This document shows positions 3,861 through 45,965 of a DNA stretch of 64,000 bases, piece by piece. The DNA comes from Paraglaciecola sp. MB-3u-78 (GTDB lineage Bacteria > Pseudomonadota > Gammaproteobacteria > Enterobacterales > Alteromonadaceae): NCBI RefSeq assembly GCF_002835935.1, contig NZ_PJCF01000004.1, forward strand, positions 744,001 to 808,000, read 5' to 3'. The notes beneath the pieces are model-generated. The model ran no database searches and was not told the DNA's origin. It worked only from the letters and a program-made list of their open reading frames with translations. A program made the translations under genes and the position numbers. Numbering within the stretch: the stretch's first letter is position 1; every line of letters begins with the position of its first letter.

Positions 3861-3874
3861 TTGATCTGAGTCAA
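3861..3874 (-). promoter_or_regulatory. FixK/Fnr-type box, metallohydrolase promoter
   Basis: The sequence TTGATCTGAGTCAA matches the FixK/Fnr palindrome TTGAT-N4-ATCAA with one change. The GTCAA half-site is common in rhizobial FixK boxes. It sits between two divergent genes. For the minus-strand gene, a -10-like TGAGAT at 3833-3838 gives a start site near 3826, placing the box centre close to -41.5. Binding is inferred. Confidence 0.6.
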
Positions 3875-3958
3875 AACAATTCACAGTTCTTTTAGTCTTA
3901 GTAGTTTGATCTGTGATTCAATATGAACAGTCACATCACGAATACTCATAGGAAGAAT

Positions 3959-3972
3959 TTGATCATCATCAA
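3959..3972 (+). promoter_or_regulatory. Perfect FixK/Fnr box with class II promoter for pfk
   Basis: TTGATCATCATCAA is an exact match to TTGAT-N4-ATCAA. A consensus TATAAT lies at 3994-3999, so transcription should start near 4006. The box centre (3965.5) is then at about -41, the classic class II activator position. This is the clearest of the ten boxes in the window. Confidence 0.8.
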
Positions 3973-4035
3973 TAGTCGTCATCCAATATCTCGTATAATA
4001 AAACAATTACTTGAAACCATAAAAAGAGTCGTCCT

Positions 4036-5184
4036 ATGAAGAAAAAAGCATTGCGTATTGGTGTGTTAACCGGTGGTGGAGATTGCCCTGGCTTAAACGC
4101 CGCTATTCGTGCGGTGTCTAAAAGTTTGATGATCAATTGCTCAGCTGAAATCATCGGTATACATGATGGCTTTTTAGGACTGATAGAGCAGCGAACTAAA
4201 AAATTAAATTATGCGGATTGCAGTGGTATTTTGTCTCAAGGTGGCACCATACTTGGCACAAATAACAGTGCCAGCCCTTTTAACTTTAAAGGCAAAGATG
4301 TCTCAACAGAGGTGATGGATTATTATCTCAGTCTAGGTTTAGATGGATTAGTGGTCATTGGTGGTGATGGCACGTTATCTATTGCCTATGAGATGTCGAA
4401 ACTGGGTATGAATATAGTCGGCATCCCTAAAACCATTGATAATGATTTAATGGGAACGGATCGAACCTTTGGCTTTGATACCGCTATTGGCATAGTGACT
4501 GAGGCATTAGATCGTTTGCGCACGACTGGACAATCCCATAAACGTGTCATGATCCTTGAAACCATGGGTAGATATGCTGGGTGGATAGCCTTGCATGCAG
4601 GTATTGCTGGTGGTGCCGACGTCATTATTATACCTGAGTTTGCTTATGATATTGATGAAGTAGCCAAAGCCTGTCAATCACGAATGGGCGAACAACATTA
4701 TTCTATTGTGGTAGTTGCCGAAGGAGCTAAACAGGCTGGGGGGACATTGACCGTTCGCGAAACCAATGAATTTGGATCGGATCCTATACGCTTAGGTGGT
4801 GTCGCTAATGTTTTAAAAATGCAGTTAGAACAAAAGATTGACGCTGAAATACGAGCCACAACCTTAGGCCACATTCAAAGGGGAGGCTCGCCTTCGGCAT
4901 ATGACCGAATTTTTGCTACTAATCTCGGCTGTTATGCTGCATCTTTAGTGGCAAACCAACACTTTGGCACAGTAGTGGTGTTGAAAAACAACCAACTATG
5001 CAGTACCTCCCTTAAAAATGTCGCTGATAAAAGTAGATTAGTGACAACAGAATCCCCTGCCCTAGCCAGTGCACTGTCAATGGGGATATGTTTTGGAAAT
5101 GCTGATCTCATACCGGAATTACACAGTTTAAAACATGAGATCCCAGGTTCAGTTGGTAATCATTGGCCAAGGACCAAAGCATAA
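4036..5184 (+). CDS. 6-phosphofructokinase, group III-like (Gly/Lys donor-site combination)
   Basis: A 382-residue cytoplasmic phosphofructokinase converting fructose-6-phosphate to fructose-1,6-bisphosphate. The N-terminus TGGGDCPGLNAAIRAV is the nucleotide/PPi loop. VVIGGDGTLS carries Gly where PPi-dependent enzymes usually have Asp, which favours ATP as donor. GIPKTIDNDLMGTDRTFG carries the Lys before TIDND typical of PPi enzymes and of group III ATP-PFKs. Catalytic Asp is in TIDND, and METMGR-type and HIQRGG substrate motifs are present (ILETMGRYAGW, LGHIQRGGSPS). Phosphate-donor choice is therefore not settled by sequence. Transcription is probably driven by the FixK/Fnr class II promoter 64 bp upstream. 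Confidence 0.92.
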   Translation: MKKKALRIGVLTGGGDCPGLNAAIRAVSKSLMINCSAEIIGIHDGFLGLIEQRTKKLNYADCSGILSQGGTILGTNNSASPFNFKGKDVSTEVMDYYLSLGLDGLVVIGGDGTLSIAYEMSKLGMNIVGIPKTIDNDLMGTDRTFGFDTAIGIVTEALDRLRTTGQSHKRVMILETMGRYAGWIALHAGIAGGADVIIIPEFAYDIDEVAKACQSRMGEQHYSIVVVAEGAKQAGGTLTVRETNEFGSDPIRLGGVANVLKMQLEQKIDAEIRATTLGHIQRGGSPSAYDRIFATNLGCYAASLVANQHFGTVVVLKNNQLCSTSLKNVADKSRLVTTESPALASALSMGICFGNADLIPELHSLKHEIPGSVGNHWPRTKA

Positions 5185-13807: not shown

Positions 13808-14062
13808 CGCCTTTCCTTCCTGGTTTTAACGGTGCACTGAATAAAGAGAATAATTAACACCCCTAGGTACTTATAAAAGTTTTGATCCAAAACAATAAAC
13901 CCGCTTTAATTATTAGATAGTATACTAAATAAAATTGCTAAAATATATGAAATGAATTACACGGGTTTCTGCAAGGTTTAGTTTATTTTTACAGGCTTAT
14001 TTAGAAGCTTCAGCACTAAAACCTCAACCTCTATAATTGCGTAGTGCACTATCTATATTTGA
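13808..14062. other. nhaA upstream region
   Basis: AT-rich non-coding DNA that should hold the nhaA promoter and the Fnr-like box described separately. I see no gene on either strand. Confidence 0.5.
13882..13895 (-). promoter_or_regulatory. Fnr/FixK-like box (one mismatch), nhaA promoter
   Basis: TTGATCCAAAACAA differs from TTGAT-N4-ATCAA at one position. On the minus strand a -10-like TAATTA at 13851-13856 would put the box centre roughly 44 bp upstream of the start site. It is weaker than the other boxes. Confidence 0.4.
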
Positions 14063-17372: not shown

Positions 17373-17858
17373 TTAAGTTTTAAAGGCAGTGTTATTTATT
17401 TCTATCTTTTGCTTATCATTCATCAGTTCATAACTCATCAATTTCATTAGTTCACTAAACTCTTCTGACAATATAGCCAATGCATCTTCAATGCTAAATA
17501 AACCAACAAGCACACCTTTTACGTTCACAACAGGAGCACTTCTAACACCGTAATAACGTAGGTATTTAAGCGCCTTTTTCACATTATGTGTTTCAGTCAC
17601 GCAGAACAATTCACAGGTTAGAATATCTTCCGCTTTTAATACAGAGGGTGCTATGTTTGCAGCGAGCACTTCGAGCACCAAATCATGATCGGAAATTATG
17701 CCTTTGGGCATAAGTTCTCCACTTATATTATCAACTACCACGACTAACCCAACCTGTTGTTCCCTCATCACTCTAGCGATATCTAGCACTGAATCTTGCT
17801 TCAAAACATATACAACATTTTTTGAACATATTTCTCCAACATTCATGTGGTTTACCAT
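17373..17858 (-). CDS. Tandem CBS-domain protein
   Basis: A 161-residue protein made of two CBS domains (about residues 8-70 and 78-140). Typical strands are VGLVVVVDNISGELMPKGII and SAPVVNVKGVLVGLFSIEDA. Free-standing CBS pairs bind adenine nucleotides and act as energy sensors, but the partner is unknown. ATG 17858 is used; an in-frame ATG at 17846 is an alternative because the predicted start site is only a few bases upstream. A FixK/Fnr box at 17903-17916 sits about 43 bp above that start site, so expression should follow the low-oxygen regulator. Confidence 0.85.
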   Translation of the reverse strand: MVNHMNVGEICSKNVVYVLKQDSVLDIARVMREQQVGLVVVVDNISGELMPKGIISDHDLVLEVLAANIAPSVLKAEDILTCELFCVTETHNVKKALKYLRYYGVRSAPVVNVKGVLVGLFSIEDALAILSEEFSELMKLMSYELMNDKQKIEINNTAFKT

Positions 17859-17902: not shown

Positions 17903-17916
17903 TTGATTTGGGTCAA
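17903..17916 (-). promoter_or_regulatory. FixK/Fnr box, CBS gene promoter
   Basis: TTGATTTGGGTCAA has the FixK-type GTCAA right half. On the minus strand TATCAT (17873-17878) can serve as -10, giving a start near 17866 and a box centre at about -43. Confidence 0.65.
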
Positions 17917-17970: not shown

Positions 17971-20607
17971 CTACTTTTGATACAACATTCCTCGCCTTAT
18001 TAAGTATTTTTCACCTTCTACCGCCCAAAAAATAATGGAAGAAACAGCAATACATATAATCAGTTCAGATAATGGTAATGGCTGTGTATGCAAAACACGG
18101 TTAAAAGCGGGAGTATAAATCACCATTAGTTGTAAAAAAACCGTGATCCCAATGGCAACTAACATGGGCTTATTACTGAATATACCTAGTATAAAAATAG
18201 ACTCTTTATCACTGCGCACAACCAACGAATGAAAGAGTTGGGAAAAAACCAAAACAGTGAATACAGATGTTTGCCAATAGTCTACTTTACGTTCAATTGT
18301 CCAAGCTAACATTGCAATGGATAAGCCCCCTACCGCTAACCCTACCCATAAAATATGTTGCCACATTCCGTGTGCAAATAAACTTTCATTATAGGGCCGT
18401 GGAGGACGTTTCATAACATCCCGTTCAGCTGGTTCAGCACTAAAGGCTAATCCCGGTAAACCATCAGTGACAAGATTTATCCATAAAATATGAATAGGTA
18501 ATAGAGGGATTGGAAGACCAAATAATGGTGCAAGAAAAAGTGTCCAAATTTCCCCTGAATTTGAGCTCATGGTGTCTTTAATAAATTTTCTAATATTATC
18601 GAATATTCTACGACCAGCTTTTACCGAGCGGACTATAGTTGAAAAATCATCATCCAATAACACCATGTCTGCAGCACCTCGTGCTACGTCAGTCCCTGTT
18701 TGTCCCATGGCGATACCAATATTAGCGCGCTGTAAAGCCGGTGCATCATTGACCCCATCCCCTGTCATGGCAACAAATTGGTTATTTTCCTGCAATGCTT
18801 TCACAATCTTTAATTTTTGAATCGGCGATACTCTGGAAAAAAGTTGAATTGAACTGACTTGATTGACTAATTCCTGATCAGATATGAGTTCGAGCTCTTT
18901 GCCATCTAACATTTTGGGGTCACCTTTAGCGATATGTAGACGTTGGGCGATTGCCAGTGCTGTTCCTCGATGATCCCCAGTAATAATTACAGGTGTGATG
19001 CCGGCCGAAATACAATCAGCCATTGCTTTAGGTACTTCGGCTCTAAGTGGGTCGGTTAGCGCAACCAAGCCTAAAAAAGTCAGGTTTTGCTCAATAGTGT
19101 TGGCGTTTATGTGTTCGGGAAGTGACTCGAAGTTACGTTTGGCCAACGCTAATACACGATAACCGCCATTAGCTAACTGCTCAGCCGCAGCTACAATCTG
19201 GTTTTTGTTTAGGTCTATTTGCTCAGCGCCATGTTGTGCATATAAACAACTAGATAGTACATTTTCTGTCGCACCTTTCACATAAGCCACAACACCAGAT
19301 GAATTACGATGCAGTGTAGTCATGATTTTTCGTTGACTGTCAAAGGCAATAGCAGCTTGACGGGGAATATCTTGGATTAATTTGTCCTTGTCGAAACCGC
19401 TGTGTTTAGCATATTCAAATAAAGCCATCTCTGTGGGCTCACCAAAAGGGATGCCGTCTTTTTGCATCACATCATTACTAATCGCAAGGGCTTCTCCGAA
19501 AGCCTGCCCAAGCCCTTCATAATCTTTGGCTAAATGGCTAGACTGTTGTTGCCCTTCGAACACCCGCTCAACGGTCATTTTATTCTGGGTTAATGTGCCA
19601 GTCTTGTCGGTGCAGATAAAGGTAACTGAGCCCAATGTTTCAACCGCAGGTAGATTGCGCACTAAAGCATGTTGCTTAAGTAATTTACGAGCACCAAGTG
19701 CAAGGGAAATAGTGATAACTGCAGGTAACGCTTCAGGTATCGCGGCAACAGCTAAACTGACAGAGGTCAAAAACATTAACAGTAATGGTTGCCCTTGTAT
19801 GAGTCCTAACACAAACAATATTGCACAGATACATAAAATAGCAGTAGCAAGGTAACGGCCAAACTTCACCAATCTTATTTGCAGAGGAGTCTTTATTTCC
19901 TCTCCTTGCTGTAATAACTTGGCAATTTGGCCAATTTCTGTGTTCAGACCTGTTGCAAAAACCACTCCTGAGGCTCGTCCGTGAGTAATCAAACTTCCCT
20001 TAAAAACGCAGTTTTTCTGATCACCAGTAAAAAGATTGTTTTCGTTTAGTTTTGTCTGCTGTTTGATTATCGATTGTGATTCTCCAGTGATTGAAGATTC
20101 GTTAACCTGTAATTCTTCTACCATAATCAAACGCATATCCGCAGGTGTGATATTACCTGTCTCTAACAATACAATGTCACCAACAACCAGTTTTTCTTCT
20201 GGCAAGGTGACGGTTTGACCGTCACGCAACACACTAGCAGTTGGGGATGCCATTTTTTGTAGTGCCTCAAGGGATCGTTGGGCCCTAAACTCTTGAATAG
20301 TGCCTACAACCGCATTAAGTAACAAAATGATAAATATCGCTGCACTATCTATTAATTCGCCAATCAGGCCCGAGATCAGAGCGGCAACTATCAATACCAT
20401 AATCATAAAATCAGCAAACTGTTTAAAAAATAACTGCCCAATGGATCGCGTTTTCTTGGAAGGAATGTCGTTAGGTCCGTTTTGTTGCAAGCGCTGTTGT
20501 GCCTTTTGAGACGTCAGACCATTAGCTGAAGTTTCAAGGTCACTTAAAACTGTTTTGACTTCTAGGTTGTAGTAATTTTCGTTCAAGCTTTTACCCCACA
20601 AAGACAA
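17971..20607 (-). CDS. Ca2+-type P-type ATPase (P2A/PMR1-like)
   Basis: An 878-residue cation pump. Key motifs are the phosphorylation site CTDKTGTLTQNK, the actuator loop ITGESQ, the hinge MTGDGVNDAPAL, and the nucleotide domain with VKGATE. Membrane helix 4 has VAAIPEALP, close to the PEGLP of Ca2+ pumps. Helix 6 has LWINLVTDGLPGLAFS, whose Asn and Asp form a Ca2+ site in P2A enzymes. It should export Ca2+ or Mn2+. The TTG at 20607 overlaps the VIT1 gene by 17 bp; TTG at 20586 with a GGGG upstream is an alternative start. It is the last gene of a three-gene operon with DUF211 and VIT1. Confidence 0.88.
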   Translation of the reverse strand: MSLWGKSLNENYYNLEVKTVLSDLETSANGLTSQKAQQRLQQNGPNDIPSKKTRSIGQLFFKQFADFMIMVLIVAALISGLIGELIDSAAIFIILLLNAVVGTIQEFRAQRSLEALQKMASPTASVLRDGQTVTLPEEKLVVGDIVLLETGNITPADMRLIMVEELQVNESSITGESQSIIKQQTKLNENNLFTGDQKNCVFKGSLITHGRASGVVFATGLNTEIGQIAKLLQQGEEIKTPLQIRLVKFGRYLATAILCICAILFVLGLIQGQPLLLMFLTSVSLAVAAIPEALPAVITISLALGARKLLKQHALVRNLPAVETLGSVTFICTDKTGTLTQNKMTVERVFEGQQQSSHLAKDYEGLGQAFGEALAISNDVMQKDGIPFGEPTEMALFEYAKHSGFDKDKLIQDIPRQAAIAFDSQRKIMTTLHRNSSGVVAYVKGATENVLSSCLYAQHGAEQIDLNKNQIVAAAEQLANGGYRVLALAKRNFESLPEHINANTIEQNLTFLGLVALTDPLRAEVPKAMADCISAGITPVIITGDHRGTALAIAQRLHIAKGDPKMLDGKELELISDQELVNQVSSIQLFSRVSPIQKLKIVKALQENNQFVAMTGDGVNDAPALQRANIGIAMGQTGTDVARGAADMVLLDDDFSTIVRSVKAGRRIFDNIRKFIKDTMSSNSGEIWTLFLAPLFGLPIPLLPIHILWINLVTDGLPGLAFSAEPAERDVMKRPPRPYNESLFAHGMWQHILWVGLAVGGLSIAMLAWTIERKVDYWQTSVFTVLVFSQLFHSLVVRSDKESIFILGIFSNKPMLVAIGITVFLQLMVIYTPAFNRVLHTQPLPLSELIICIAVSSIIFWAVEGEKYLIRRGMLYQK

Positions 20608-21160: not shown

Positions 21161-21172
21161 GTAAGTTGTCAA

Positions 21173-21451: not shown

Positions 21452-21512
21452 TTGTTTAAGCCTTAAAGAATTAAATTAAGATAAAGTGTACGAGCATTAG
21501 AATTAACATTTA

Positions 21513-27368: not shown

Positions 27369-27377
27369 ATCATTCAA

Positions 27378-27745: not shown

Positions 27746-27774
27746 GAATCTGCTAATGTTAAATGAGGTGTAAA

Positions 27775-28578: not shown

Positions 28579-28689
28579 GTTTCTTCTCCAAATAGGTGAT
28601 GTATGATGACGTTTAATTCCTTTAAAAATTACATACAAAATTGAGTTAGGTTACTTGAGTCATTGCGTTACGCGTAAATAATTGCCTAA

Positions 28690-28737: not shown

Positions 28738-28751
28738 TTGACTGATATCAA
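28738..28751 (-). promoter_or_regulatory. Fnr/FixK box, usp promoter
   Basis: TTGACTGATATCAA fits TTGA(T/C)-N4-ATCAA. It is 77 bp downstream of the Crp/Fnr gene's end and upstream of usp on the same strand. A TTAAAT at 28711-28716 (minus strand) is a possible -10, leaving a long leader before the usp ATG. Confidence 0.6.
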
Positions 28752-29580: not shown

Positions 29581-29751
29581 CTCGGTATTACCTCTAAAAT
29601 TAAGGAATATCAACTGACATAAAGCTTAATTGTCTAGCTGCCACTTTTACTCTTGGGTTAAATCATATACCGTTAATAACAACTCACAATATCCGGAATA
29701 ACTCGTAAATTACTTCGGAAACTACTTATATATTATATAGGATACTTGTTA

Positions 29752-31597: not shown

Positions 31598-31724
31598 TTA
31601 GAGCCTAATCTAGGTATAAATGCTTATTGCTGTATGCCACATTGGCATTGATAATAACCACTATAAATAATGCGTTTCGAAAATATATCTATCAGTGGTA
31701 ATTAGTTTATTTATGGTGTCCAAA

Positions 31725-32114
31725 ATGAAAGCTCTTGAAAAACCAATTGTGTACATAGTTGATAGTGATCATCAATTACTGTGTTCACTTTCGAAATTAT
31801 TAGAGCAACAAGATGTGATAGTAGAGGTGTTTACTTCTGCAGAAGATTTTTTTAATACAAAATTAAGAAGTAGAGCTGCTTGCCTAATCGTTGAAGTCAA
31901 TTTACCCAATATGGACGGCATCGAGTTACTCGAACAGATTAATAACTTAGGCGTTAGATTACCCACAATAGTTTTATCATCAGGCAGCGATGTTTCTAAG
32001 GCTGTTCGCGCAATGCAAGCTGAGGCCATTGATTTCATTGAAAAGCCGTTTATAGAAAACACGCTGATTAAAAAAGTTATGGGTGTAATAAATCAGACTC
32101 AAATAATTTTTTAA
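31725..32114 (+). CDS. Stand-alone receiver with Glu in place of the phosphoacceptor Asp
   Basis: A 129-residue FixJ-like receiver without output domain. The fold is complete: IVYIVDSDHQLLCSL, then SAACLIVEVNLPNMDG-type strand (AACLIVEVNLPNMDG), TIVLSSGSDVSKAVRAM and DFIEKPF. Position 57, normally the phosphorylated Asp, is Glu, and one of the acidic pocket residues is Ser. Asp-to-Glu often mimics phosphorylation in receivers. It may be a locked-on decoy or anti-partner of FixL/FixJ, or a FixJ duplicate that lost its DNA-binding domain. ATG 31725 is used; a GTG at 31695 and an ATG at 31713 are also in frame. Confidence 0.72.
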   Translation: MKALEKPIVYIVDSDHQLLCSLSKLLEQQDVIVEVFTSAEDFFNTKLRSRAACLIVEVNLPNMDGIELLEQINNLGVRLPTIVLSSGSDVSKAVRAMQAEAIDFIEKPFIENTLIKKVMGVINQTQIIF

Positions 32115-34133: not shown

Positions 34134-34147
34134 TTGATCTACATCAA
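34134..34147. promoter_or_regulatory. Perfect FixK/Fnr box between the NOR remnant and atpD
   Basis: TTGATCTACATCAA is an exact match to TTGAT-N4-ATCAA. It lies 147 bp before the atpD ATG and faces the NOR remnant on the other side. It may be a leftover of the nor promoter or a distal site for the N-ATPase operon. Confidence 0.7.
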
Positions 34148-34225: not shown

Positions 34226-34239
34226 TTGATCAAGGTCAA
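34226..34239 (+). promoter_or_regulatory. FixK/Fnr box, N-ATPase operon promoter
   Basis: TTGATCAAGGTCAA has the FixK-type GTCAA half. AATACT at 34264-34269 can act as -10, placing the start near 34275 and the box centre at about -42, a class II arrangement. The atpD ATG is 55 bp downstream. Confidence 0.7.
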
Positions 34240-34290: not shown

Positions 34291-35742
<1,452 letters not shown>

Positions 35743-36138
35743 ATGAACTTAGATATATTGCTTCCAAATAAAGTTTTTGCCAAGCATAAAAATGTATTGC
35801 GGGTAATAGTGGAAACTTTAGAGGGTTCATACGGGATCTTGCCTAACAGACGTGACTGCACAGCTGCTTTGGCACCAGGAATACTCACCTACGAAATCGA
35901 ATCTGGAAAAGAAATATATATCGCTATCGATCAAGGAATAGTGGTCAAAAAAGGCAATGATGTTTTAGTTTCTGTTCGACAAGCCATTCAAGGTATTGGT
36001 CTTAGCCAGCTTAGAGAAGCGATAAAGGCAGAGTTTTTAACGCTGGATGAGAAACAACAAGAAATACGTTTTGCCATGGATAAATTAGAAAGTAGTTTTT
36101 TACAGCGTTTAACTGAATTTTCAACAGGCGCAAGATGA
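35743..36138 (+). CDS. atpC: N-ATPase epsilon subunit
   Basis: A 131-residue central-stalk subunit. The N-terminal beta-sandwich is recognisable by the pattern LDILLPNKVF and EGSYGILPNRRDCTAAL. The helical C-terminus (about residues 90-131) is present but differs from the inhibitory hairpin of E. coli epsilon. It starts immediately after atpD and overlaps atpQ by 4 bp (ATGA), so the genes are tightly coupled. Having epsilon second rather than last is characteristic of N-ATPase operons. Confidence 0.88.
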   Translation: MNLDILLPNKVFAKHKNVLRVIVETLEGSYGILPNRRDCTAALAPGILTYEIESGKEIYIAIDQGIVVKKGNDVLVSVRQAIQGIGLSQLREAIKAEFLTLDEKQQEIRFAMDKLESSFLQRLTEFSTGAR

Positions 36139-36551
36139 GTATGAAGCCTAACAACCCCGAAACTGATGTGAAAACAACAGAAAATCGGAAATTAGTATTA
36201 GCTGAGAAAATTGACAATAAGGCGAAACGAAAACTTAAGGCACAACGACATTCTGGTACCAGCGCTTGGTTTGGATTAGGCATGATGGGGTTAATTGGAT
36301 GGTCGATTGCTTTACCAACAATATTAGGCGCCACCCTAGGCATATGGCTAGATAAACATTACAAAATTGAGCATTCGTGGACCTTATCACTGATTGTTGC
36401 CGGCCTGACATTAGGCTGTTTCACCGCATGGAATTGGCTGAGTAAAGAAGATCAAGCCATGCGTGAGGAAAATGAAGAAGACAATCAGCAACGAATAGAA
36501 CAAAAACAAGAACAAAAACAAGAACAAAAAAGAGAGCAACATAATGATTAA
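36135..36551 (+). CDS. atpQ: N-ATPase AtpQ (AtpI-like) membrane protein
   Basis: A 138-residue protein with two membrane helices: WFGLGMMGLIGWSIALPTIL and TLSLIVAGLTLGCFTAWNWL. Between them is GATLGIWLDKHY, a conserved AtpI-like loop. It corresponds to the AtpI-like gene of N-ATPase operons, thought to help assemble the c-ring or move Mg2+/Ca2+. The C-terminal tail is a run of Gln-Lys-Glu repeats (EQKQEQKQEQKREQ) coded by a 12-bp DNA repeat. It overlaps atpR by 8 bp. Confidence 0.83.
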   Translation: MSMKPNNPETDVKTTENRKLVLAEKIDNKAKRKLKAQRHSGTSAWFGLGMMGLIGWSIALPTILGATLGIWLDKHYKIEHSWTLSLIVAGLTLGCFTAWNWLSKEDQAMREENEEDNQQRIEQKQEQKQEQKREQHND

Positions 36552-36879
36552 CGCCTTAACAGAAATACTCTATTCACCTATAGAACTGTGTATCACCCTA
36601 ATATTTGGATTTTCATTAGGGTGCGTATTCTTTTTGAGTTTGTGGTGGACGGTCTCCAGGGGACTGACATCAGAACGACCAGTTCTGTGGTTTGTAACAG
36701 GTTTTTTCATCAGAATTGGCACATGTTTGTTTGGCTTCTATTTTATCGCAGATGGAAACTGGCAACCATTAGTCATTAGCCTCATAGGTTTTATTATTGC
36801 TAGGCCTGCAATCAAATTATTGATTGACCTAAGATGTAATCACAACCAAACCAAAGGGAGATTTAAAGATGCAACTTAG
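36544..36879 (+). CDS. atpR: N-ATPase AtpR membrane protein
   Basis: A 111-residue protein with three hydrophobic segments. It contains SLGCVFFLSLWWTVSRGLTS and GFFIRIGTCLFGFYFI, with Arg residues inside or at the edge of the membrane. This is the N-ATPase-specific AtpR, suggested to contact the c-ring carboxylate or aid assembly, and it is absent from ordinary F-ATPase operons. It overlaps both atpQ (8 bp) and atpB (11 bp). Its presence is one of the best signs that this is a true N-ATPase. Confidence 0.82.
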   Translation: MINALTEILYSPIELCITLIFGFSLGCVFFLSLWWTVSRGLTSERPVLWFVTGFFIRIGTCLFGFYFIADGNWQPLVISLIGFIIARPAIKLLIDLRCNHNQTKGRFKDAT

Positions 36880-37603
36880 CCCTGATGAAATTGTGTATTG
36901 GCAATTAGGATTTATCAAACTCAACGCAACCATAGTATTTACTTGGTGTTTGATGCTGATTTTTTTCATCAGTGCAAATGTCCTTGCACAGGCATTAACA
37001 CACCACGATAAACGCACTCGCTGGCAAAATGCTCTGGAAACTATTGTGTTGGGTATTGAAAAACAAATTTCCAGTGTTGGCCTAACCTACCCTAGGCAAT
37101 ACATAGGTTTCCTCGGAACATTATTTTTATTCGTAGCCCTAGCTAACCTGTTAACTATTTTACCAGGATACGAGCCTCCCACCGGCTCACTGTCTACGAC
37201 TTTGTCTCTAGCATTATGTGTGTTTATTGCCGTACCTTATTACGGAATTAAAAAGCGGGGGGTAAAGGACTACCTTGCATCCTATGCCAAACCTACCGTC
37301 ATAATGTTGCCGTTTAACATTATTGGTGAAATATCCAGAACCTTTGCATTAGCGGTACGACTGTTCGGGAATATAATGAGTGGCACCATGGTCATAGCAA
37401 TAATGATGCTCATTGCACCATTCATTTTTCCCATCGTTATGACAGCCCTAGGTTTATTAACCGGCATGGTGCAAGCGTACATATTTTTTATTCTGGCAAG
37501 TGTTTATATCGCGGCTGCAACAAGTGTTAACAATACTCAATCTCATATACAAAAACACACACTTAAAAACACCCCACTAACCAAACCATCCGAGGAGAAA
37601 TAA
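36869..37603 (+). CDS. atpB: N-ATPase subunit a
   Basis: A 244-residue membrane subunit forming the ion half-channels. The essential stator Arg is in TFALAVRLFGNIMSGTMV, and a further conserved region is GMVQAYIFFILASVYI. About five to six membrane helices are visible. It is slightly shorter than E. coli subunit a (271). GGGAG lies 8 bases before the ATG, inside atpR. The C-terminal tail is hydrophilic. Confidence 0.92.
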   Translation: MQLSPDEIVYWQLGFIKLNATIVFTWCLMLIFFISANVLAQALTHHDKRTRWQNALETIVLGIEKQISSVGLTYPRQYIGFLGTLFLFVALANLLTILPGYEPPTGSLSTTLSLALCVFIAVPYYGIKKRGVKDYLASYAKPTVIMLPFNIIGEISRTFALAVRLFGNIMSGTMVIAIMMLIAPFIFPIVMTALGLLTGMVQAYIFFILASVYIAAATSVNNTQSHIQKHTLKNTPLTKPSEEK

Positions 37604-37605
37604 AT

Positions 37606-37884
37606 ATGGATAGCCTGACTATTATTGCCATTGTGTCGATCATCACAGGAGGTGTCACTATCTGTTTTGGTGCTATCGGGCCGGCGTTTGCTGAAGGTAG
37701 GGCTGTGGCCAATGCAATGACTGCGTTGGCACAACAGCCTGACGCTTCATCAACCATAACGCGAACCTTGTTTGTTGGTTTGGCAATGATTGAATCGACT
37801 GCCATTTATTGTTTTGTAGTGACCATGATCCTGTTATTTAGCAATCCTTTTTGGAATTACTTCATTACACAAAGTGGCTACTAA
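37606..37884 (+). CDS. atpE: N-ATPase subunit c (two-carboxylate rotor protein)
   Basis: A 92-residue hairpin that builds the rotor ring. Helix 1 ends with GAIGPAFAEGRAVANAM, with Glu30 at the position of the Na+-ligand Gln in Ilyobacter. Helix 2 carries the ion carboxylate Glu63 in GLAMIESTAIYCFV. Glu63-Ser64-Thr65 and Tyr68 make up a Na+-type ligand set. However, two carboxylates per hairpin are also found in the Burkholderia pseudomallei N-ATPase ring, reported to be H+ coupled. So the coupling ion cannot be fixed from sequence. A GAGGAG ribosome site precedes the ATG, fitting the high copy number of c. Confidence 0.93.
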   Translation: MDSLTIIAIVSIITGGVTICFGAIGPAFAEGRAVANAMTALAQQPDASSTITRTLFVGLAMIESTAIYCFVVTMILLFSNPFWNYFITQSGY

Positions 37885-37887
37885 ATC

Positions 37888-38724
37888 ATGACCATAGATT
37901 GGTTTACAGTGAGTGCACAAACACTCAACTTCCTGTTGTTAGTGTGGTTATTAAAGCGCTATCTTTATGGCCCTATATTGAAAGCAATAGATGCCAGAGA
38001 GAGTCAGGTTGCAAAAGTATTGAGTGACGCTGACACGATAAAATCAGATGTTGAATCACAGCGTAATTTGCTTGAGCAAAAGAATGCTGAAATCGATACA
38101 AATCGCGATGAATTGCTAAAAGTCGCCACAAAAACGGCGAATGACCAAAGTGAGCAGATAGTGTTCCAAGCTCATAAAAAAGCAGATGAAATAAGTCACA
38201 GTCGTTTTTTAGCATTAGATAAAGAACTACAACATTATCAAAATGATATTGCTTTAAAAACGTTACAAGAAATATATGAAATAGCACGTAAAGTGCTTGC
38301 AGATCTTGCTGATGTTGAACTCGAACAAAAGATGTTTGAGTGTTTTTGTAAACATTTAAAGAACCTGAGTCCTGACGAAAAAACCAACCTGAATAAAACT
38401 CTCGAAGCAGACAACACTGAGATGGTTTTATACAGCGCATTTGAACTTACACAAGCTCAATTAGAAGCAATAGACGACATATTAAAAAAACTTACATTGG
38501 CTAATACCGATAGACAATATCAACTAAAACAGGAAGTTAAAGTTGCACTTATTAGTGGTATTGAACTTCGCTCAAATGCATGGAAAATTTCGTGGAATAG
38601 TGAAGATTATCTAAAAGTCCTACAAACATTTATTAATCAATTGTTAACTGAGCAGCGTGAAACATTAAATAACAGAACTGCACAATTAAACAGCCGAATG
38701 CACACTACTAAAGATTCAGCATGA
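37888..38724 (+). CDS. atpF: N-ATPase subunit b with delta-like C-terminus
   Basis: A 278-residue peripheral-stalk protein. The N-terminal membrane anchor is DWFTVSAQTLNFLLLVWLLK, then a long coiled coil (about residues 35-140). The C-terminal 100 residues (ending LISGIELRSNAWKISWNSED) resemble the C-terminal strand region of delta/OSCP. No separate delta gene exists in the operon, so a b-delta fusion is the likely solution. Typical b subunits are about 155 residues. The stop overlaps the atpA ATG by 4 bp. Confidence 0.85.
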   Translation: MTIDWFTVSAQTLNFLLLVWLLKRYLYGPILKAIDARESQVAKVLSDADTIKSDVESQRNLLEQKNAEIDTNRDELLKVATKTANDQSEQIVFQAHKKADEISHSRFLALDKELQHYQNDIALKTLQEIYEIARKVLADLADVELEQKMFECFCKHLKNLSPDEKTNLNKTLEADNTEMVLYSAFELTQAQLEAIDDILKKLTLANTDRQYQLKQEVKVALISGIELRSNAWKISWNSEDYLKVLQTFINQLLTEQRETLNNRTAQLNSRMHTTKDSA

Positions 38725-40346
38725 CAATCCCACAATCAAGAAACATGAAATCAACGTTGAACTCTTTATACAGCTCATTGAAACAAGGGCGATTAAAGGT
38801 CAAGGCAGATTTAAACACACAAGAAGTGGGGACAGTAACCAGTGTATCAACGGGTATAGCGTTAGTAAGCGGGCTACCAAATGTTGGTTTTGACGAACTC
38901 TTAAATTTTGGTAACGACTTGTACGGTATTGCCTTCAATCTTGATGAAGATGAAATAGGTGTCGTGATGCTTGGCGATGCTTGGCGTTTAAATGTAGGTG
39001 ATGACGTTAAACGCACAGGACGAGTGATGGATATAGCTGTTGGGTCAGAATTACTTGGCCGAGTTATCGACCCTCTAGGTAGGCCTCTGGATGGTAATCC
39101 ACCGCCAGCATTGACACAAAGACTACCCATTGAACGCTCTGCCTCCGCCATTATAAAGCGCTCTCCTGTCACTGAACCATTGCAAACTGGTATTAAGGTT
39201 ATTGATGCGCTTTTGCCAATAGGCCGAGGACAGCGCGAACTAATACTCGGAGATAGGCAAACAGGTAAAACGGCGATTGCCATTGATACAATCCTGAATC
39301 AGAAAGGAAAAAATGTCATATGTGTTTATTGCGCAATAGGGCAAAAAGCCTCTTCGGTTGCAAAAACATTGGCAGTTTTAAAAAATAACCATGGGATGGA
39401 TTATACCGTTGTGGTGGTGACTGAAGGTAATGATCCACCTGGCCTTGATTATATTGCGCCTTACGCCGCCACAAGTGTAGCCGAATACTTTATGGAAGCC
39501 GGTGAAGATGTGTTGATTGTGTATGACGATCTGACTCAACATGCACGCTCTTATCGTGAACTGTCATTGCTGCTGCGGCGTCCACCTGGAAGAGAAGCCT
39601 TTCCTGGCGATATTTTTTATCTTCACTCAAGGTTACTTGAACGCTCTACTCATTTGAACAAGGACAATTCTGGTGGCTCTTTGACAGCGTTACCTATTAT
39701 TGAGACAGAAGGACAGAATATGTCGGCCTATATTCCAACAAATCTGATCTCGATTACCGATGGACAAATATATTTGTCGCCCACTTTGTACGATTTGGGT
39801 GTACTGCCAGCAGTAGACGTTGGCAAGTCAGTATCACGAGTGGGCGGTAAAGCACAGCGTGACGCTTATAGAAAGGTAGCGAGTGATTTAAAACTGGCTT
39901 ACGCACAGTTTGAAGAGCTCGAAAATTTCGCCCGATTTGGGGCACGACTGGATGACGATACACTTAGTACAATAGACCATGGCCGACATATTCGAGCCTA
40001 TTTTAGTCAATCTGAATCAGATCCATTAACCGTAGCTGAACAAATAACCTTGTTGTTAGTGCTTGGCCAGCGGTTATTTGATGCAGTGCCTCTGAGTGAA
40101 ATGCCAAAAGCCCAAGCTAGTTTACGCGCCGCAACCAAAAGCATGCCAGAGACGTTAATAACATGCCTAGAAAATGCCCAGAATATAACTGATGAAGACA
40201 AACAGTTAGTCATCAACATCGCCAAGAAAACATTAGCGCCTTTTATAAAAAAGGTTGCAGTTGAGGATACAGACAGCGGATTAGAAAAAAATTCTACACA
40301 AAGTGTTTTTAATAAACCAAGTGAGACACCAGATAAACATGAGTAA
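38721..40346 (+). CDS. atpA: N-ATPase alpha subunit
   Basis: A 541-residue non-catalytic nucleotide-binding subunit. The P loop is ILGDRQTGKTAIAIDTIL; other motifs are CVYCAIGQKASSVAKTL, VLIVYDDLTQHARSYREL and SVSRVGGKAQ, which includes the catalytic-site Arg. The C-terminus is about 30 residues longer than in E. coli alpha (513) and hydrophilic (ending SEDPDKHE-like, here SETPDKHE). atpG starts inside the last codons. Confidence 0.95.
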   Translation: MTIPQSRNMKSTLNSLYSSLKQGRLKVKADLNTQEVGTVTSVSTGIALVSGLPNVGFDELLNFGNDLYGIAFNLDEDEIGVVMLGDAWRLNVGDDVKRTGRVMDIAVGSELLGRVIDPLGRPLDGNPPPALTQRLPIERSASAIIKRSPVTEPLQTGIKVIDALLPIGRGQRELILGDRQTGKTAIAIDTILNQKGKNVICVYCAIGQKASSVAKTLAVLKNNHGMDYTVVVVTEGNDPPGLDYIAPYAATSVAEYFMEAGEDVLIVYDDLTQHARSYRELSLLLRRPPGREAFPGDIFYLHSRLLERSTHLNKDNSGGSLTALPIIETEGQNMSAYIPTNLISITDGQIYLSPTLYDLGVLPAVDVGKSVSRVGGKAQRDAYRKVASDLKLAYAQFEELENFARFGARLDDDTLSTIDHGRHIRAYFSQSESDPLTVAEQITLLLVLGQRLFDAVPLSEMPKAQASLRAATKSMPETLITCLENAQNITDEDKQLVINIAKKTLAPFIKKVAVEDTDSGLEKNSTQSVFNKPSETPDKHE

Positions 40347-41238
40347 TTCACTGGCAAACCTACAACACAAAATAACCAGCGCCAGCGATTTACAGTCGGT
40401 AGTGCGTACCATGAAAGCAATGGCCGCAGTTAATATCACCCAATATGAAAATGCAGTTAATTCCCTCGCTGACTATTATCAAGCGGTGACATTGGGGCTA
40501 AATGTGTGTTTTCATCAAACCAATACAGCAGGCTATGACGGGCGCTATGGGGTAAATGACAATCATAAAAATATTGGTGTTATTGCATTTGGCTCCGACC
40601 AAGGGCTCGTTGGCCAGTTCAATAATCTGTTGGCTGAATTTTTAATTGAAACCATGCAAAGTTATCCTCAGAAAAAGCTCGTTTGGGCAATTGGTGAGCG
40701 AATACAGCCTCTATTATCAACAGCAAATATGAATACAGGGAAAAGTTATCGACTTCCTGGCACCTTAGACACCATATCTGAACTTGTGGGTGAACTCATA
40801 TTAGAAATAGAATCCCAGAGAGAAAAAAATGATATAGGGCAAATATTTGTTTTTCACAATACGCCCACATCCAAGGCAACTTATACTGCAACTTTCCAAA
40901 AACCGCTGCCTTTTGATCAAAACTGGAAGGACGAACTTTTGTTGACCCAATGGCCTACTAAAAGTTTACCCGAACTTCTTAATAGTAAAGAAACCACGTT
41001 TAAGGCATTGATCAGCGAATATTTGTTTGTATCTATCTACAAAGCCTGTGCAGAGTCTTTGGCTAGTGAAAATGCCAGCCGTTTAGAGGCAATGCTACGA
41101 GCCGAAAAAAATATTGAAGAATTATTAGATGGGTTAAACCAAAATTTTAGGTATCAGCGACAAACGGGTATCGACGAAGAGTTATTTGACCTAGTTGCAG
41201 GCTATGAAGCTTTACTCGAAAAAACCTATAAAAAATGA
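40339..41238 (+). CDS. atpG: N-ATPase gamma subunit
   Basis: A 299-residue rotor shaft. The N-terminal helix is NLQHKITSASDLQSVVRTMK and the C-terminal helix contains AESLASENASRLEAMLRAEK, both typical of gamma. The central Rossmann-like domain shows GSDQGLVGQFNNLLAEF. I chose ATG 40339, overlapping the atpA stop by 8 bp, over a GTG at 40303 deep in atpA. It is the last gene of the operon. A perfect FixK box for the next gene begins 5 bp after its stop. Confidence 0.9.
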   Translation: MSNSLANLQHKITSASDLQSVVRTMKAMAAVNITQYENAVNSLADYYQAVTLGLNVCFHQTNTAGYDGRYGVNDNHKNIGVIAFGSDQGLVGQFNNLLAEFLIETMQSYPQKKLVWAIGERIQPLLSTANMNTGKSYRLPGTLDTISELVGELILEIESQREKNDIGQIFVFHNTPTSKATYTATFQKPLPFDQNWKDELLLTQWPTKSLPELLNSKETTFKALISEYLFVSIYKACAESLASENASRLEAMLRAEKNIEELLDGLNQNFRYQRQTGIDEELFDLVAGYEALLEKTYKK

Positions 41239-41243: not shown

Positions 41244-41257
41244 TTGATATTCATCAA
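41244..41257 (+). promoter_or_regulatory. Perfect FixK/Fnr box, HMG-CoA reductase promoter
   Basis: TTGATATTCATCAA matches TTGAT-N4-ATCAA exactly. TAAATA at 41281-41286 can be the -10, giving a start near 41292 and the box centre at -41.5. It gives the gene its own switch separate from the atp operon. Confidence 0.75.
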
Positions 41258-41315: not shown

Positions 41316-42872
41316 ATGTTTGTCCCAACCTCAATGTTGAAACAGCTATATACCCTTGGCAGTTTAAAAGAGACTCAAAATGGATTGTGTTTTTCATTAA
41401 AAAACCGGATTAAAAGTGCACACTTTAATCAGGTATTACACCTTTCTATTAATGATCAAAGAGTTGATAACAACAAAATAATGGTTGCGCTGAATTCAGA
41501 GCAAAAAACAAGTCTAGATACTCTTAAACACAACCAAGGTGTTGAATTTCCACTTGGCGCAATCTTACATGTCTTTGTTGAGGGCATTTTCGTTTCAGAG
41601 TCAAAAAACTTCAATATTCATATCACCCTTGATACCCATCCTTTTGGCGAAATTAACTTAACCTTAAAAGATAAAATGTCACTTCCAACTCCAGCTTTGC
41701 ATGATATTCCTCGCAGTATAGAAAATGACTTACATCTAGACATGGTACAAGCACGACAAAATTATGTATCAGAGGTAACAGGAGTGACGCCCACAAAGTT
41801 ATTTAACATTGATGTGGATCTAGAGTCTTTTCGGGGAAATATTGAACATTTTTGTGGTATTGCCCAAGTACCTGTTGGTATAGCAGGACCTATTAAAGTC
41901 AATGGTGAACACGCTACAGGAGAGTTTCTTATTCCAATGGCTACAACCGAAGGCACGCTGGTGGCTTCGTATAATCGAGGGATGAAACTTCTGAATAAAT
42001 CAGGAGGCGTAAAAGCAACAGTGGTGGATGATGCAATGCAACGCGCCCCTGTTTTTGTATTTGATGATGCAAGAAAAGCCAGAGATTTTGGAAGTTGGGT
42101 GGCAGATAATATTGATGAAATACGACGTCAAGCGGAGGCAACAGATCCTTTTTTAAAACTACGTAATATTGAACAATACAAATCCAACAAATTTGCGTTT
42201 TTGAGGTTTAATTTTACCACAGGTGATGCAGCGGGACAGAACATGGTGGGACGTGCAACCTATGTGGCCTGTGGTTGGATACTTGAGCACTATGCTAATG
42301 TAAAAAACACGAAAATAATTAATTTTTTCCTTGAATCAAATATGGCAACTGATAAAAAATCGTCTTTTATTAACATATTAAATACCCGAGGAAAAAGGGT
42401 CACGGCCGAAGTTACCATCAAGCGGGATGATTTAATGGAAGTCATGAGAGTGGAACCAAAACAGATAGCACAGCATCAGAGAGTCGCATCTGTGGGCGCA
42501 TTTTTAGCCGGTGCCAACAACACCGGGTTACATTCTGCAAACGGTATTGCAGCTATGTTTATTGCGACCGGCCAGGATGCGGCTAACGTATCTGAATCAT
42601 CATCTGGGATTATTTATTCAGAAATAACCGAGGCTGGAGACTTGTACCTCTCGATAACCTTGCCCTCTTTAATCATCGCAACCTGTGGTGGCGGTACTGG
42701 CCTTGGCACCCAAAAAGAATGCCTTGAAATATTGCAATGTTATGGCCCAGGAAACGCATTGAAGTTTGCTGAGATAGTGGCCTCTGTTGCACTTGCAGGT
42801 GAAATATCTCTGGCATCAGCGATTTCATCTTTAGACTGGGTAACATCTCATGAAGAGCTTGGTAGAAATTAA
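41316..42872 (+). CDS. Hydroxymethylglutaryl-CoA reductase, class I-like, with N-terminal beta-rich domain
   Basis: A 518-residue enzyme. Residues 1-115 form a beta-rich domain I do not recognise. The catalytic part shows IAQVPVGIAGPIKVNGE, IPMATTEGTLVASYNRG (catalytic Glu), GDAAGQNMVGRAT, MATDKKSSFIN (catalytic Lys), ATGQDAANVSESSS (Asp) and TCGGGTGLGTQ. A C-terminal WVTSHEELGRN supplies the catalytic His. Everything needed for NADPH-dependent conversion of HMG-CoA to mevalonate is in place. Gammaproteobacteria normally make isoprenoids by the MEP route, so the role here is unclear. Location between N-ATPase and phosphoketolase with its own FixK box ties it to the low-oxygen programme. Confidence 0.87.
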   Translation: MFVPTSMLKQLYTLGSLKETQNGLCFSLKNRIKSAHFNQVLHLSINDQRVDNNKIMVALNSEQKTSLDTLKHNQGVEFPLGAILHVFVEGIFVSESKNFNIHITLDTHPFGEINLTLKDKMSLPTPALHDIPRSIENDLHLDMVQARQNYVSEVTGVTPTKLFNIDVDLESFRGNIEHFCGIAQVPVGIAGPIKVNGEHATGEFLIPMATTEGTLVASYNRGMKLLNKSGGVKATVVDDAMQRAPVFVFDDARKARDFGSWVADNIDEIRRQAEATDPFLKLRNIEQYKSNKFAFLRFNFTTGDAAGQNMVGRATYVACGWILEHYANVKNTKIINFFLESNMATDKKSSFINILNTRGKRVTAEVTIKRDDLMEVMRVEPKQIAQHQRVASVGAFLAGANNTGLHSANGIAAMFIATGQDAANVSESSSGIIYSEITEAGDLYLSITLPSLIIATCGGGTGLGTQKECLEILQCYGPGNALKFAEIVASVALAGEISLASAISSLDWVTSHEELGRN

Positions 42873-43237: not shown

Positions 43238-45634
43238 TTAATCATATGGCCACACCCAATTGGTGATTTCGGGACTGTCTACTCCATGTTCATGAGCATA
43301 GAGTTTGCATTCAATTTGGCAGTCTTTAAAAAGTTGTTTAGCGTGTGCACCAGCTACTTTTAACTTAGGTACACGATTAATAACATCAATGGCTAGGCTA
43401 TATCGGTCAATACGATTATCAATCGCAAGCTCCATCGGAGTGTTAATATTACCCTGCTCAACGTAACCTCGAACATGCAGATTATGGTGATTAGTCCTGC
43501 GATAAGCTAAACGGTGTATTAACCAAGGATAACCATGGAAATTAAAAATAATCGGCTTATCCAGGGTAAACAAACTATCAAAATCACTGTCAGATAAACC
43601 ATGAGGATGTTCTGAATCCTGTGTCATCCGAAACAAATCAATGACGTTAATGAAGCGTATTTTAAGCTCGGGAAATTCCTCTCTTAGCAATGCGGTGGCC
43701 GCTAATGCTTCTTTGGTAGGAATGTCACCACAACCAACCATCACAACGTCTGGTTCAACCCCTTGATCATTGCTTGCCCATGACCAAATACCAATTCCTT
43801 TAGTACAGTGCTTAATTGCACTTTCCATGTCGAGGTACTGCATATGAGACTGTTTGTCACAGACAATAACGTTAATATCATCGTGACTTCGTAAACAATG
43901 GTCAGCGGTAGATAAAAGACAATTAACATCAGGTGGCAGATAAATTCTGGTAACTTGTGGGCTTTTATTGACTACCAAATCAAGAAAACCTGGATCTTGA
44001 TGGGTGAAGCCATTGTGATCTTGACGCCAAACGGTAGAAGTGATCAATAAATTAATCGAAGCTATAGGTGCACGCCAAGGTAACTTTTCACTTATAGCCA
44101 GCCACTTTGCATGTTGATTAAACATGGAATCAATAACATGCACAAACGCTTCGTATGTAGCAAAAAATCCGTGACGACCAGTCAAAACGTATCCTTCAAA
44201 CCACCCCTCAAGGGTATGTTCCGATAACATTTCTAAGACTCTACCATCAGTACTTAATTGCCCACCATTGTCATCTTCTGGCAAATAATCACATAACCAC
44301 AATTTTTTACTGACTTCGTAAATTGCATCTAGTTTATTAGATGAATTCTCATCAGGTCCAAACACCCGAAAGTTTGTATTGTTGCGGGCCATAATGTCAC
44401 GAAGCATTTCACCTAGCGGTTGGGTATTCATAGCAAATGACTTGGCCGGTTGTTTCACATCATTGGCATAATGTCTGAAATCAGGCATGCGCAGATTTCT
44501 TTTTAGTAAACCACCGTTGGCATGAGGGTTAGCGCTCATACGGTGGATACCCTTGGGTGCTAATTGTCGCAACTCAGAGACTAATCTTCCTTGATCATCA
44601 AACAACTCTTCAGGTTTATAGCTGCGAAGCCATTTTTCTAGTATTTCTAGCTGTTCAGGGCTATTTTTAACATTAGTTAAAGGGACTTGATGGGCCCGCC
44701 AAAATCCCTCTATTTTATTGCCATCCACTTCTTTTGGTCCAGTCCAGCCTTTGGGTGAACGCAATATGATGAGTGGCCAATGCGCACGATGTGCGATGCC
44801 CGACTGACGAGCTCTTTGCTGTATCTGACGTATCTCACGTAAACACGTTTCCATAACGTCAGCCATTTGTTTATGCATCGTGATGGGGTCATCTCCCTCT
44901 ACAAAGTAAGGTTTCCAACCATAACCAATAAACAAGGCTTCTAATTCTTTATGCGGAATACGAGATAACAATGTAGGGTTATTAATCTTATAACCATTCA
45001 GATGCAATATCGGTAATACTGCACCATCTCTAATGGGGTTTAAAAACTTACTGGAATGCCAAGAGGTGGCTAGTGGGCCTGTTTCAGCCTCTCCATCACC
45101 TACTGCTACTGTGACAATTAAATCTGGGTTATCAAAAGCAGCGCCAAATGCGTGAGAAATACTGTAACCCAGTTCTCCCCCTTCATGGATCGAACCGGGC
45201 AACTCAGGAGTGCAATGGCTTCCAATACCCCCAGGAAAAGAGAACTGTTTGAACAAGTGTTTCATGCCTTGTAAATCCTGCTCTACATCCGGATAAACCT
45301 CTGAATACGTGCCTTCAAGATACACTGGCGCAATCACCCCTGGTGCACCATGCCCTGGCCCTGCTAAAAATATAGCATTCAAGTCGTACTTATTAATGAG
45401 TCTGGTCATATGCACATACATAAAAGATAAGCCTGGGCTGGAACCCCAATGCCCTAACAGGCGCTTTTTTATATCTCCTATTTCAAGAGGTCTGCGTAAC
45501 AAAGGATTGTCTTGTAAATAAATCATGCCAGCTGCCAAATAATTGCAAGCACGCCAATAGGCATCTAGTAATTTTAGTTCTTGTTCTGATAATGTAGTTT
45601 TATTACTGGCAGTGGTCTGTATCTGTTTTTTCAT
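43238..45634 (-). CDS. xfp: Xylulose-5-phosphate/fructose-6-phosphate phosphoketolase
   Basis: A 798-residue thiamine-diphosphate enzyme that cleaves xylulose-5-P or fructose-6-P to acetyl-phosphate plus a triose- or erythrose-phosphate. Motifs are [57 protein letters not shown] (ThDP binding) and [18 protein letters not shown]. Length agrees with Xfp (about 790). I chose ATG 45634; a longer frame to 45778 has no ribosome site. Acetyl-P gives ATP via acetate kinase (not in window) without redox cost, fitting low-oxygen metabolism. A perfect FixK box sits at 45952-45965, leaving a leader of about 280 nt. Confidence 0.94.
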
Positions 45635-45918
45635 GGTAATGATGTTCCGATAGGTGTCGAAATAGCTGAGAAAGAGATTGTCTTTGCATCGGTATTTATC
45701 TGTATATTGAATATTCCTAAGTTGGTACTTGATGAAACTAAATTGAGTACCAGAAAAAACCGTTGTGTCGCAAAGCACAACACCGCAACCCTGACAATTG
45801 AAGTCAACAGGAGTAGTACAGCAATCATCTGATATCCCTAATCAATAAGTTAAAAAACTACATGTATGAGTCATGGGGTTGTGTTTATCTCAAATACACA
45901 TGCTAATGCTCTAAAATA
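45635..45918 (-). other. Long predicted leader of phosphoketolase mRNA
   Basis: From the predicted start site near 45918 to the ATG at 45634 there are about 284 nt. Two short minus-strand frames overlap here but neither looks like a protein. The stretch may hold RNA-level control, another promoter, or simply a long leader. I see no riboswitch that I can name. Confidence 0.35.
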
Positions 45919-45951
45919 CAAAAAATCATATCTTTTATTGAATGGCCTATA

Positions 45952-45965
45952 TTGATGTAAATCAA
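45952..45965 (-). promoter_or_regulatory. Perfect FixK/Fnr box, phosphoketolase (and possibly ndh) promoter
   Basis: TTGATGTAAATCAA matches TTGAT-N4-ATCAA exactly. On the minus strand TATGAT (45925-45930) is a good -10, with start near 45918 and the box centre at about -41. The divergent ndh start is 245 bp away in the other direction. Confidence 0.75.

Follow-up and report, generated by a model that had tools for sequence, protein, structure and literature searches.

Does a marine gammaproteobacterium use a FixL-FixJ-FixK relay like that of rhizobia, and which genes would such a relay control? The question is raised by a 64,000-nucleotide stretch (the window) of the Paraglaciecola sp. MB-3u-78 genome (contig NZ_PJCF01000004.1, positions 744,001 to 808,000), in which fixL, fixJ and a divergent Crp/Fnr gene, called fixK here, lie together among intergenic boxes of the form TTGAT-N4-ATCAA. 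Our sequence comparisons favor, with a probability of roughly 70%, a circuit in which FixLJ acts on fixK and on a second FNR-type gene, fnr, whose products would act through the boxes on a low-oxygen programme of fermentation, stress response, and ion balance.

We found that all three genes named in an earlier, sequence-only reading of this DNA are present: a haem-PAS FixL, an overlapping FixJ, and a divergent Crp/Fnr gene. The solved PAS domains closest to that of FixL are those of FixL proteins. The residues H87 and R107, which are invariant in a 13-row FixL alignment, align with the haem-ligand His and the haem-pocket Arg of the BjFixL and SmFixL chains, which we take to be H200 and R220, respectively, in BjFixL. 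The best-scoring model for FixL is the NCBIfam FixL equivalog (368 bits against 850, below the cut-off), with the residues before profile position 116 unmatched, and the best model for FixJ is NCBIfam FixJ (225 bits, below the cut-off of 255). Among the best 80 of 547 loci, the nearest named FixL is that of an uncultured Paraglaciecola metagenome-assembled genome (79% identity), that of P. mesophila is more distant (56%), and three loci (L157, L158, and L161) have an FNR-type match of at least 120 amino acids near fixL. The stand-alone receiver gene downstream of fixJ has counterparts in 11 of 15 relatives; its product is possibly a phosphate sink for FixL.

The alignment of the fixL-fixK intergenic regions of relatives shows a conserved stretch, roughly TAGGTA.TTTCCGAA...TTTACGCGA..TTCGGATAG, from which the 22-base search pattern GTANTTNCCGMANNNNTTTACG was derived. 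With up to one mismatch, the pattern occurs three times in the 6.48 Mb source genome: upstream of fixK (no mismatch), upstream of fnr (one mismatch), and once more inside a coding frame. The third match (C45:238986), in a 142-residue frame adjoining a flagellin-like gene, was taken as chance. Sixteen genomes carry a FixL orthologue, defined at E below 1e-120, and the best matches in their 17 regions upstream of an FNR-type regulator have 0, 1, 5, 0, 0, 0, 1, 1, 2, 2, 1, 4, 1, 3, 3, 4, and 1 mismatches, that is, 0-2 in 12 regions, 3-4 in four, and 5 in one (G001). The 13 FixL-less regions examined, from the 36 FixL-less genomes with an FNR-type match, have 5-7 mismatches in 12 cases and 4 in one (G004); the comparison of these 13 with the eight regions that were unseen when the pattern was written gives P 1e-4. 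Both fixK and fnr carry the site with up to one mismatch in the source genome (G000), G015, G017, and G019. In G021, where no fixK was found beside fixL, the site persists between usp, the gene of a universal stress protein (Usp), and fixL, and in Alteromonadaceae BrNp21-10 (L161), where an Fnr with cysteines lies beside FixL, it has two mismatches. Because a FixJ-type site lies upstream of fixK and of fnr alike, both regulators are predicted to be under FixLJ.

The window site reads TAAGTAGTTTCCGAAG and resembles the FixJ consensus, which is given as GTAGTTTCCC from systematic evolution of ligands by exponential enrichment and as TAAGTAATTTCCCTTA in S. meliloti (PMC4999443). GTAMGTAG was rejected as the FixJ site since it gave one-mismatch matches only, in the window and in G019, and the conserved footprint fits the GTAGTTTCCC class instead. 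By eye only, TAAGTAGTTCCC can be recognized upstream of the S. meliloti fixK copy. A further stretch, CAGCTAGACAATTA...TTATGTCAGTTGATA, separates the window site from the start of fixK (window 29600-29690); it is largely kept in G000, G001, G015, G017, and G019 and may be a promoter or the site of another regulator.

Several observations weigh against the FixJ-type site. The reversed control gives more matches than the pattern itself, 22 versus 14 at two mismatches in the source genome and 49 versus 24 at one mismatch in 35 genomes. Since the reversed form is at least as common as the pattern itself, the evidence lies in the match positions: 13 of the 24 sit upstream of fnr or fixK or, in G021, beside fixL. 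Of 300 shuffles of one upstream region, 12 gave a best match with four mismatches and the others one with 5-7; four is also the best value of G007 and G008. In G012, an 84% complete genome with no FixL match at E 1e-40, the site precedes an fnr fragment. In G001, fixL reads in three frames, which may reflect decay or sequencing error, and the FixJ site of fixK is half deleted. At two rhizobial fixK genes (S. meliloti pSymA and B. septentrionale), the 22-base pattern finds nothing under six mismatches.

The FixK-like protein contains a single N-terminal Cys, and the Fnr of the same genome contains the motif C-x2-C-x6-C. The equivalent of C122, as we presume the FNR cysteine to be numbered, is retained in the FixK-like protein while the N-terminal set is lost, so that the four FNR ligands are incomplete. 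The protein fits FNR far better than FixK, both in models (170 of 228 bits for FNR, 88 of 300 bits for FixK) and in structures. Only one other match exists in the genome at E 1e-5, the iron-sulphur Fnr (C1:255284-256054). A tree of 37 proteins separates the alteromonad FixJ-linked clade (19 rows, 100/100) from four alphaproteobacterial proteins that lack the cysteines (100/100). The cysteine-less trait takes at least three changes, which on this unrooted tree could be one gain and two losses; the cysteine-bearing protein of G004 branches within the FixK side (99/93), and G029 forms a long branch of unsure placement. Judged by these comparisons, the "FixK" is an alteromonad FNR paralogue and not a rhizobial FixK by descent. 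The FixL-FixJ-FixK interpretation holds for the haem-type FixL, FixJ, the cysteine-less FNR-family regulator, and the FixJ-type site, but the regulator groups with alteromonad Fnr.

Within the window, exactly ten intergenic sites match TTGAT-N4-ATCAA with up to one mismatch under curated gene borders, and they are the same ten that had been listed before (Table 1). The four exact matches compare with 0.17 expected from dinucleotide shuffles, and none of 100 shuffles reached four; six boxes have one mismatch, and seven further sites with up to one mismatch lie in genes (6600, 10091, 27663, 31759, 38941, 41809, and 58869). A comparison with control stretches of the genome, similar to the check that the sequence-only reading had proposed, agrees: the 9.2 kb of intergenic DNA in the window holds ten boxes versus 2.1 expected from the controls (Poisson P 8e-5) and four exact ones versus 0.33 (P 4e-4). 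The controls, 19 stretches (380 kb) from elsewhere in this genome with the fnr cluster excluded, hold 13 intergenic sites with up to one mismatch in 55.7 kb of intergenic sequence. Their gene borders come from a crude caller of open reading frames (ORFs), those of the window are curated, and this difference lowers the contrast; the crude caller places box 34134 within an ORF, whereas the curated borders make it intergenic. With crude borders in the window, TTGAT itself gives three exact and six one-mismatch intergenic sites, and 19 other letter orders average 0.05 and 0.79 (maxima 1 and 4), respectively.

The island of boxes is larger than described: intergenic boxes continue to C1:677846, which lies ~66 kb beyond the left edge of the window, and fnr is surrounded by a second cluster. 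At 683-708 kb, intergenic boxes precede genes of a carbohydrate phosphorylase, a formate/nitrite transporter, a molybdopterin oxidoreductase, and a zinc alcohol dehydrogenase, and one box overlaps the start of an AMP-binding enzyme. The boxes around fnr (253-262 kb) precede fnr itself, two Usp genes, and the gene of a D-2-hydroxyacid dehydrogenase.

We scanned the 350 bp upstream of orthologues in the fetched stretches of 15 relatives for sites with up to one mismatch, excluding two too-short regions. The boxed genes keep an upstream box in 16 of 30 cases, compared with 18 of 123 for other genes (Fisher P 2e-5). These 30 cases do not include nhaA, HMG-CoA reductase, and phosphoketolase, of which the fetched stretches contained no orthologue. 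The box is kept before the genes of the CBS-domain protein (3/3), the MBL hydrolase (3/3), the type II NADH dehydrogenase (NDH2, across the phosphoketolase-NDH2 interval; 2/3), and the N-type ATPase (N-ATPase; 1/1), and less well before usp (6/11), pfk (1/6, with the five misses in different gene order), and DUF211 (0/3). In the case of the CBS box, the half-sites are constant and the spacers vary, with TTGACCCAAATCAA in the window and G001, TTGATTTAAATCAA in G017, and TTGACATAAATCAA in G019. In G002, G013, and G016, where the N-ATPase genes lie at other genomic places, a box with one mismatch precedes the match start by 114-117 bp, and TTGACACGAGTCAA lies at the same distance in G006.

The conservation also has its gaps. 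Five of the 11 usp orthologues (G015, G017, G019, G021, and G023), four of them from the nearest relatives, lack a box with up to one mismatch. The N-ATPase genes of G019 and G023 show no box within two mismatches, and that of G004 has only TTGACCTAGGTCAA, at -349. Genes counted as unboxed show sites as well, such as RND (4/4) and CbpA (3/8). Box 27663 before the RND operon, present with up to one mismatch in 4/4 relatives, was set aside as it overlaps the start of a small ArsR-type frame (27378-27677), and its conservation may therefore be coding.

A further feature concerns the promoters. Among nine box-gene pairs (34134 omitted), the -10-like hexamer scores highest at the class II distance, 39 versus 25-35 at 15 other offsets and versus 31.6 +- 2.6 with shuffled downstream DNA (P 0.0044), an effect that is real but modest. 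Of the four genes for which this spacing had been claimed, pfk (TATAAT), phosphoketolase (TATGAT), and the DUF211 operon (TACACT) fit, and HMG-CoA reductase (GATAAA) is weaker.

Taken as a mechanism, FixL, presumably O2-inhibited as in rhizobia, would phosphorylate FixJ at low oxygen. FixJ would bind upstream of fixK and, elsewhere, upstream of the iron-sulphur fnr; in the window, FixJ~P would protect GTAGTTTCCGAA and the TTACG repeat within 29691-29728. Because its iron-sulphur cysteines are lost, FixK should be active whenever it is made, whereas Fnr would require low oxygen a second time. Both, with the same recognition-helix core, should bind TTGAT-N4-ATCAA and turn on, often in class II fashion, phosphofructokinase, phosphoketolase, N-ATPase, NhaA, the Ca2+ pump operon, Usp, CBS, and others. 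A more detailed proposal, which we hold tentatively and at slightly less than even odds, is that FixK arose in a Paraglaciecola lineage from the local Fnr by duplication and cluster loss, independently of rhizobia, and that FixLJ drives both regulators in a two-threshold circuit whose outputs are glycolysis, phosphoketolase, and Na+/Ca2+ balance, and not the cbb3 oxidase. If so, the iron-sulphur arm would require low oxygen twice and the cluster-free arm once, with one box type shared.

Which of the two regulators owns the boxes? The recognition helix reads NYLGMAIETVSR in both, and fnr also has a FixJ-type site; the boxes therefore cannot be assigned to one or the other, and by sequence their ownership in the source genome is indistinguishable. 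The boxes conserved before several of the named genes support the earlier reading, though not as boxes of FixK alone. It is rather unlikely that the iron-sulphur Fnr alone serves the boxes, with the FixK-like protein directed to other targets or acting as a weak modulator. That explanation would account for the richness of the fnr locus in exact boxes and for the usp box of G002, G006, G010, G013, and G016, whose single FNR-type gene has cysteines, but not for G001, a one-contig genome whose single FNR-type match is cysteine-less and which retains boxes at CBS, usp, and NDH2. The case of G001 argues that FixK can serve the boxes, and the fixK gene, moreover, lies inside the box-rich region with its own FixJ-type site.

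Haem-PAS proteins bind several gases, and the sensor may instead report nitric oxide, CO, or redox state, the regulon then being a nitrosative or general stress response. Although Usp, CBS, and the nearby rhodanese and RND genes are of the stress type, we regard this explanation as improbable, as the haem-pocket residues match those of O2-sensing FixL and the boxed genes include sugar-fermentation enzymes. The genome-wide number of exact boxes, 63 versus 17 for the reversed pattern, was dropped as evidence, because four genomes of the same genus that gave no FNR-type match at E 1e-15 show an equal excess (G003, 32/10; G011, 39/8; G018, 32/5; G020, 28/11). That the boxes are mostly background, a chance cluster of a sequence common in these genomes as the four counts would allow, is nevertheless very improbable given their intergenic restriction, density, -10 spacing, and conservation, partly with differing spacers.

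The FixLJ-FixK2 system of B. diazoefficiens shares with the Paraglaciecola circuit a haem FixL, FixJ, and a Crp/Fnr relay; here, however, FixK groups with alteromonad Fnr, and the boxed genes add N-ATPase, NhaA, DUF211-VIT1-Ca2+ ATPase, and HMG-CoA reductase. The microoxia-induced set of B. diazoefficiens contains Usp, CBS, phosphoketolase, phosphoenolpyruvate synthase, a 1-phosphofructokinase-family kinase, a J-domain protein, and alcohol dehydrogenase; among these rows of the source, two Usp, one CBS, and AdhP are marked as direct FixK2 targets, and phosphoketolase, phosphoenolpyruvate synthase, and the phosphofructokinase-family protein bear no such mark (PMC6515984). Since a similar list is induced there at low oxygen, the present regulon looks like a variant rather than one of different purpose, and the contrast drawn earlier between rhizobial respiration and fermentation with ion balance here is too sharp. 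Part of it remains in the cbb3 oxidase, a marked FixK2 target in B. diazoefficiens (PMC6515984), whereas here ccoN (C1:652697-654076) has no box with up to one mismatch in the 450 bp upstream, and the same is true of G015 and G001. Among the other relatives, ccoN has a box at -407 in G019 and exact boxes at -233 in G006 and G013; G017 gave no ccoN match.

The alphaproteobacterial FixLJ/FnrN/FixK and hFixL-FxkR-FixKf networks likewise have a FixJ site upstream of fixK, and independent losses of the Fe-S cluster have been proposed for FixK and FixKf (PMC4999443). In contrast, a separate cysteine-less branch exists here in Gammaproteobacteria, and the FixJ-type site precedes the cysteine-less and the Fe-S paralogue alike. 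The plasmid loci of Methylobacterium currus and Bradyrhizobium septentrionale contain the same parts, including the stand-alone receiver, but their FixK is alphaproteobacterial and fixL-fixJ-receiver-fixK lie on one strand, whereas fixK is divergent here. The FNR, EtrA, and Anr regulons of Gammaproteobacteria use TTGAT-N4-ATCAA boxes, fermentation genes, and an E-SR recognition helix; unlike them, the FNR-type genes here carry a FixJ-type site and are seemingly under a haem two-component system. We found no report of this system among titles and abstract starts of the open-licence literature.

The circuit would bring marine Gammaproteobacteria into the FixLJ paradigm, with a FixJ site that lends itself to testing, and suggests that a cysteine-less FixK evolved anew from Fnr. 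Relatives with a cysteine-bearing Fnr only, with FixK only, and with both offer natural experiments on stacked oxygen sensors. The boxes also suggest that an N-type ATPase can belong to a low-oxygen programme. The coupling ion and role of this enzyme are debated, and because that of B. pseudomallei is reported to be H+-specific (PMC5376962), a Na+ role is only a candidate.

Table 1. Genes, FixJ-type site, and FNR/FixK boxes of the window (window positions).
Feature	Position	Strand	Location or role	Remarks
FixJ-type site	29691-29728	-	upstream of fixK	core GTAGTTTCCGAAGTAATTTACG, 29704-29725; plus conserved TTCCGGATA repeat
fixK-like Crp/Fnr regulator	28816-29580	-		without the FNR N-terminal cysteine set; ORF listed from 29613; conserved ATG of relatives at 29580
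fixL, cytosolic haem-PAS histidine kinase	29746-30945	+		399 amino acids; PAS+HisKA+HATPase
fixJ, receiver + LuxR-type (GerE helix-turn-helix) response regulator	30935-31597	+		overlaps fixL (30945/30935)
Stand-alone receiver protein	31695-32114	+		also beside fixLJ on Methylobacterium and Bradyrhizobium plasmids
MBL-fold beta-CASP hydrolase	2392-3795	-	putative target	
6-phosphofructokinase (pfk)	4036-5184	+	putative target	
NhaA	12419-13807	-	putative target	
CBS-domain protein	17373-17858	-	putative target	
Operon of DUF211, VIT1-family, Ca2+-type P-ATPase	17971-21452	-	putative target	DUF211 at 21174-21452, named as in the earlier reading
Universal stress protein (usp)	28153-28638	-	putative target	
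N-ATPase operon D C Q R B E F A G	34294-41238	+	putative target	c subunit 37606-37884; subunit letters presumed from gene order
HMG-CoA reductase	41316-42872	+	putative target	NADPH-type model best, 330 bits versus cut-off 442
Phosphoketolase	43238-45778	-	putative target	
FNR/FixK box, 1 mismatch	3861-3874		MBL/beta-CASP - pfk intergenic	same letters in G017, G021; exact box in G023
FNR/FixK box, exact	3959-3972		before pfk	class II spacing to TATAAT; 1 mismatch in G017
Box, 1 mismatch	13882-13895		before nhaA	pattern search
Box, 1 mismatch	17903-17916		before CBS-domain gene	kept in 3/3 relatives; different spacers in 2
Box, 1 mismatch	21513-21526		before DUF211-VIT1-Ca2+ ATPase operon / divergent LOG-type gene	0/3 relatives at up to 1 mismatch
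Box, 1 mismatch	28738-28751		before usp	6/11 relatives; 4 exact (G001, G010, G013, G016)
Box, exact, distal	34134-34147		before N-ATPase operon	pattern search
Box, 1 mismatch, proximal	34226-34239		before N-ATPase operon	kept in G017
Box, exact	41244-41257		before HMG-CoA reductase	pattern search
Box, exact	45952-45965		between phosphoketolase and NDH2	2/3 relatives, upstream of NDH2

Some minor features of the region were also recorded. The best NCBIfam model for the MBL/beta-CASP hydrolase is the type VII CRISPR Cas14 (377 of 800 bits), and a Cas assignment was not accepted, the score being under the cut-off. A second match to the N-ATPase beta subunit, 50% identical, lies at G000:C12:333292-334671, and the N-ATPase genes of relatives occupy varied places. 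HMG-CoA reductase, with its exact box, directly follows the N-ATPase operon in the window.

Beside usp and fixK, window 22630-27963 contains a rhodanese, an RND pump pair, the small frame at 27378-27677, which we take to be of ArsR type, and a small membrane-type frame (27763-27963), together a possible sulphur-stress cassette; rhodanese and RND genes are also found beside usp/fixK in G015, G017, G019, and G021. To the left of the window, G000:C1:716000-743000 carries genes that by eye resemble copper/heavy-metal efflux genes, with boxes at 723916 (intergenic) and 730158 (in frame). A transposase, presumably of the IS1595 type, lies to the right of NDH2 (window 47264-48148), near the right end of the box region.

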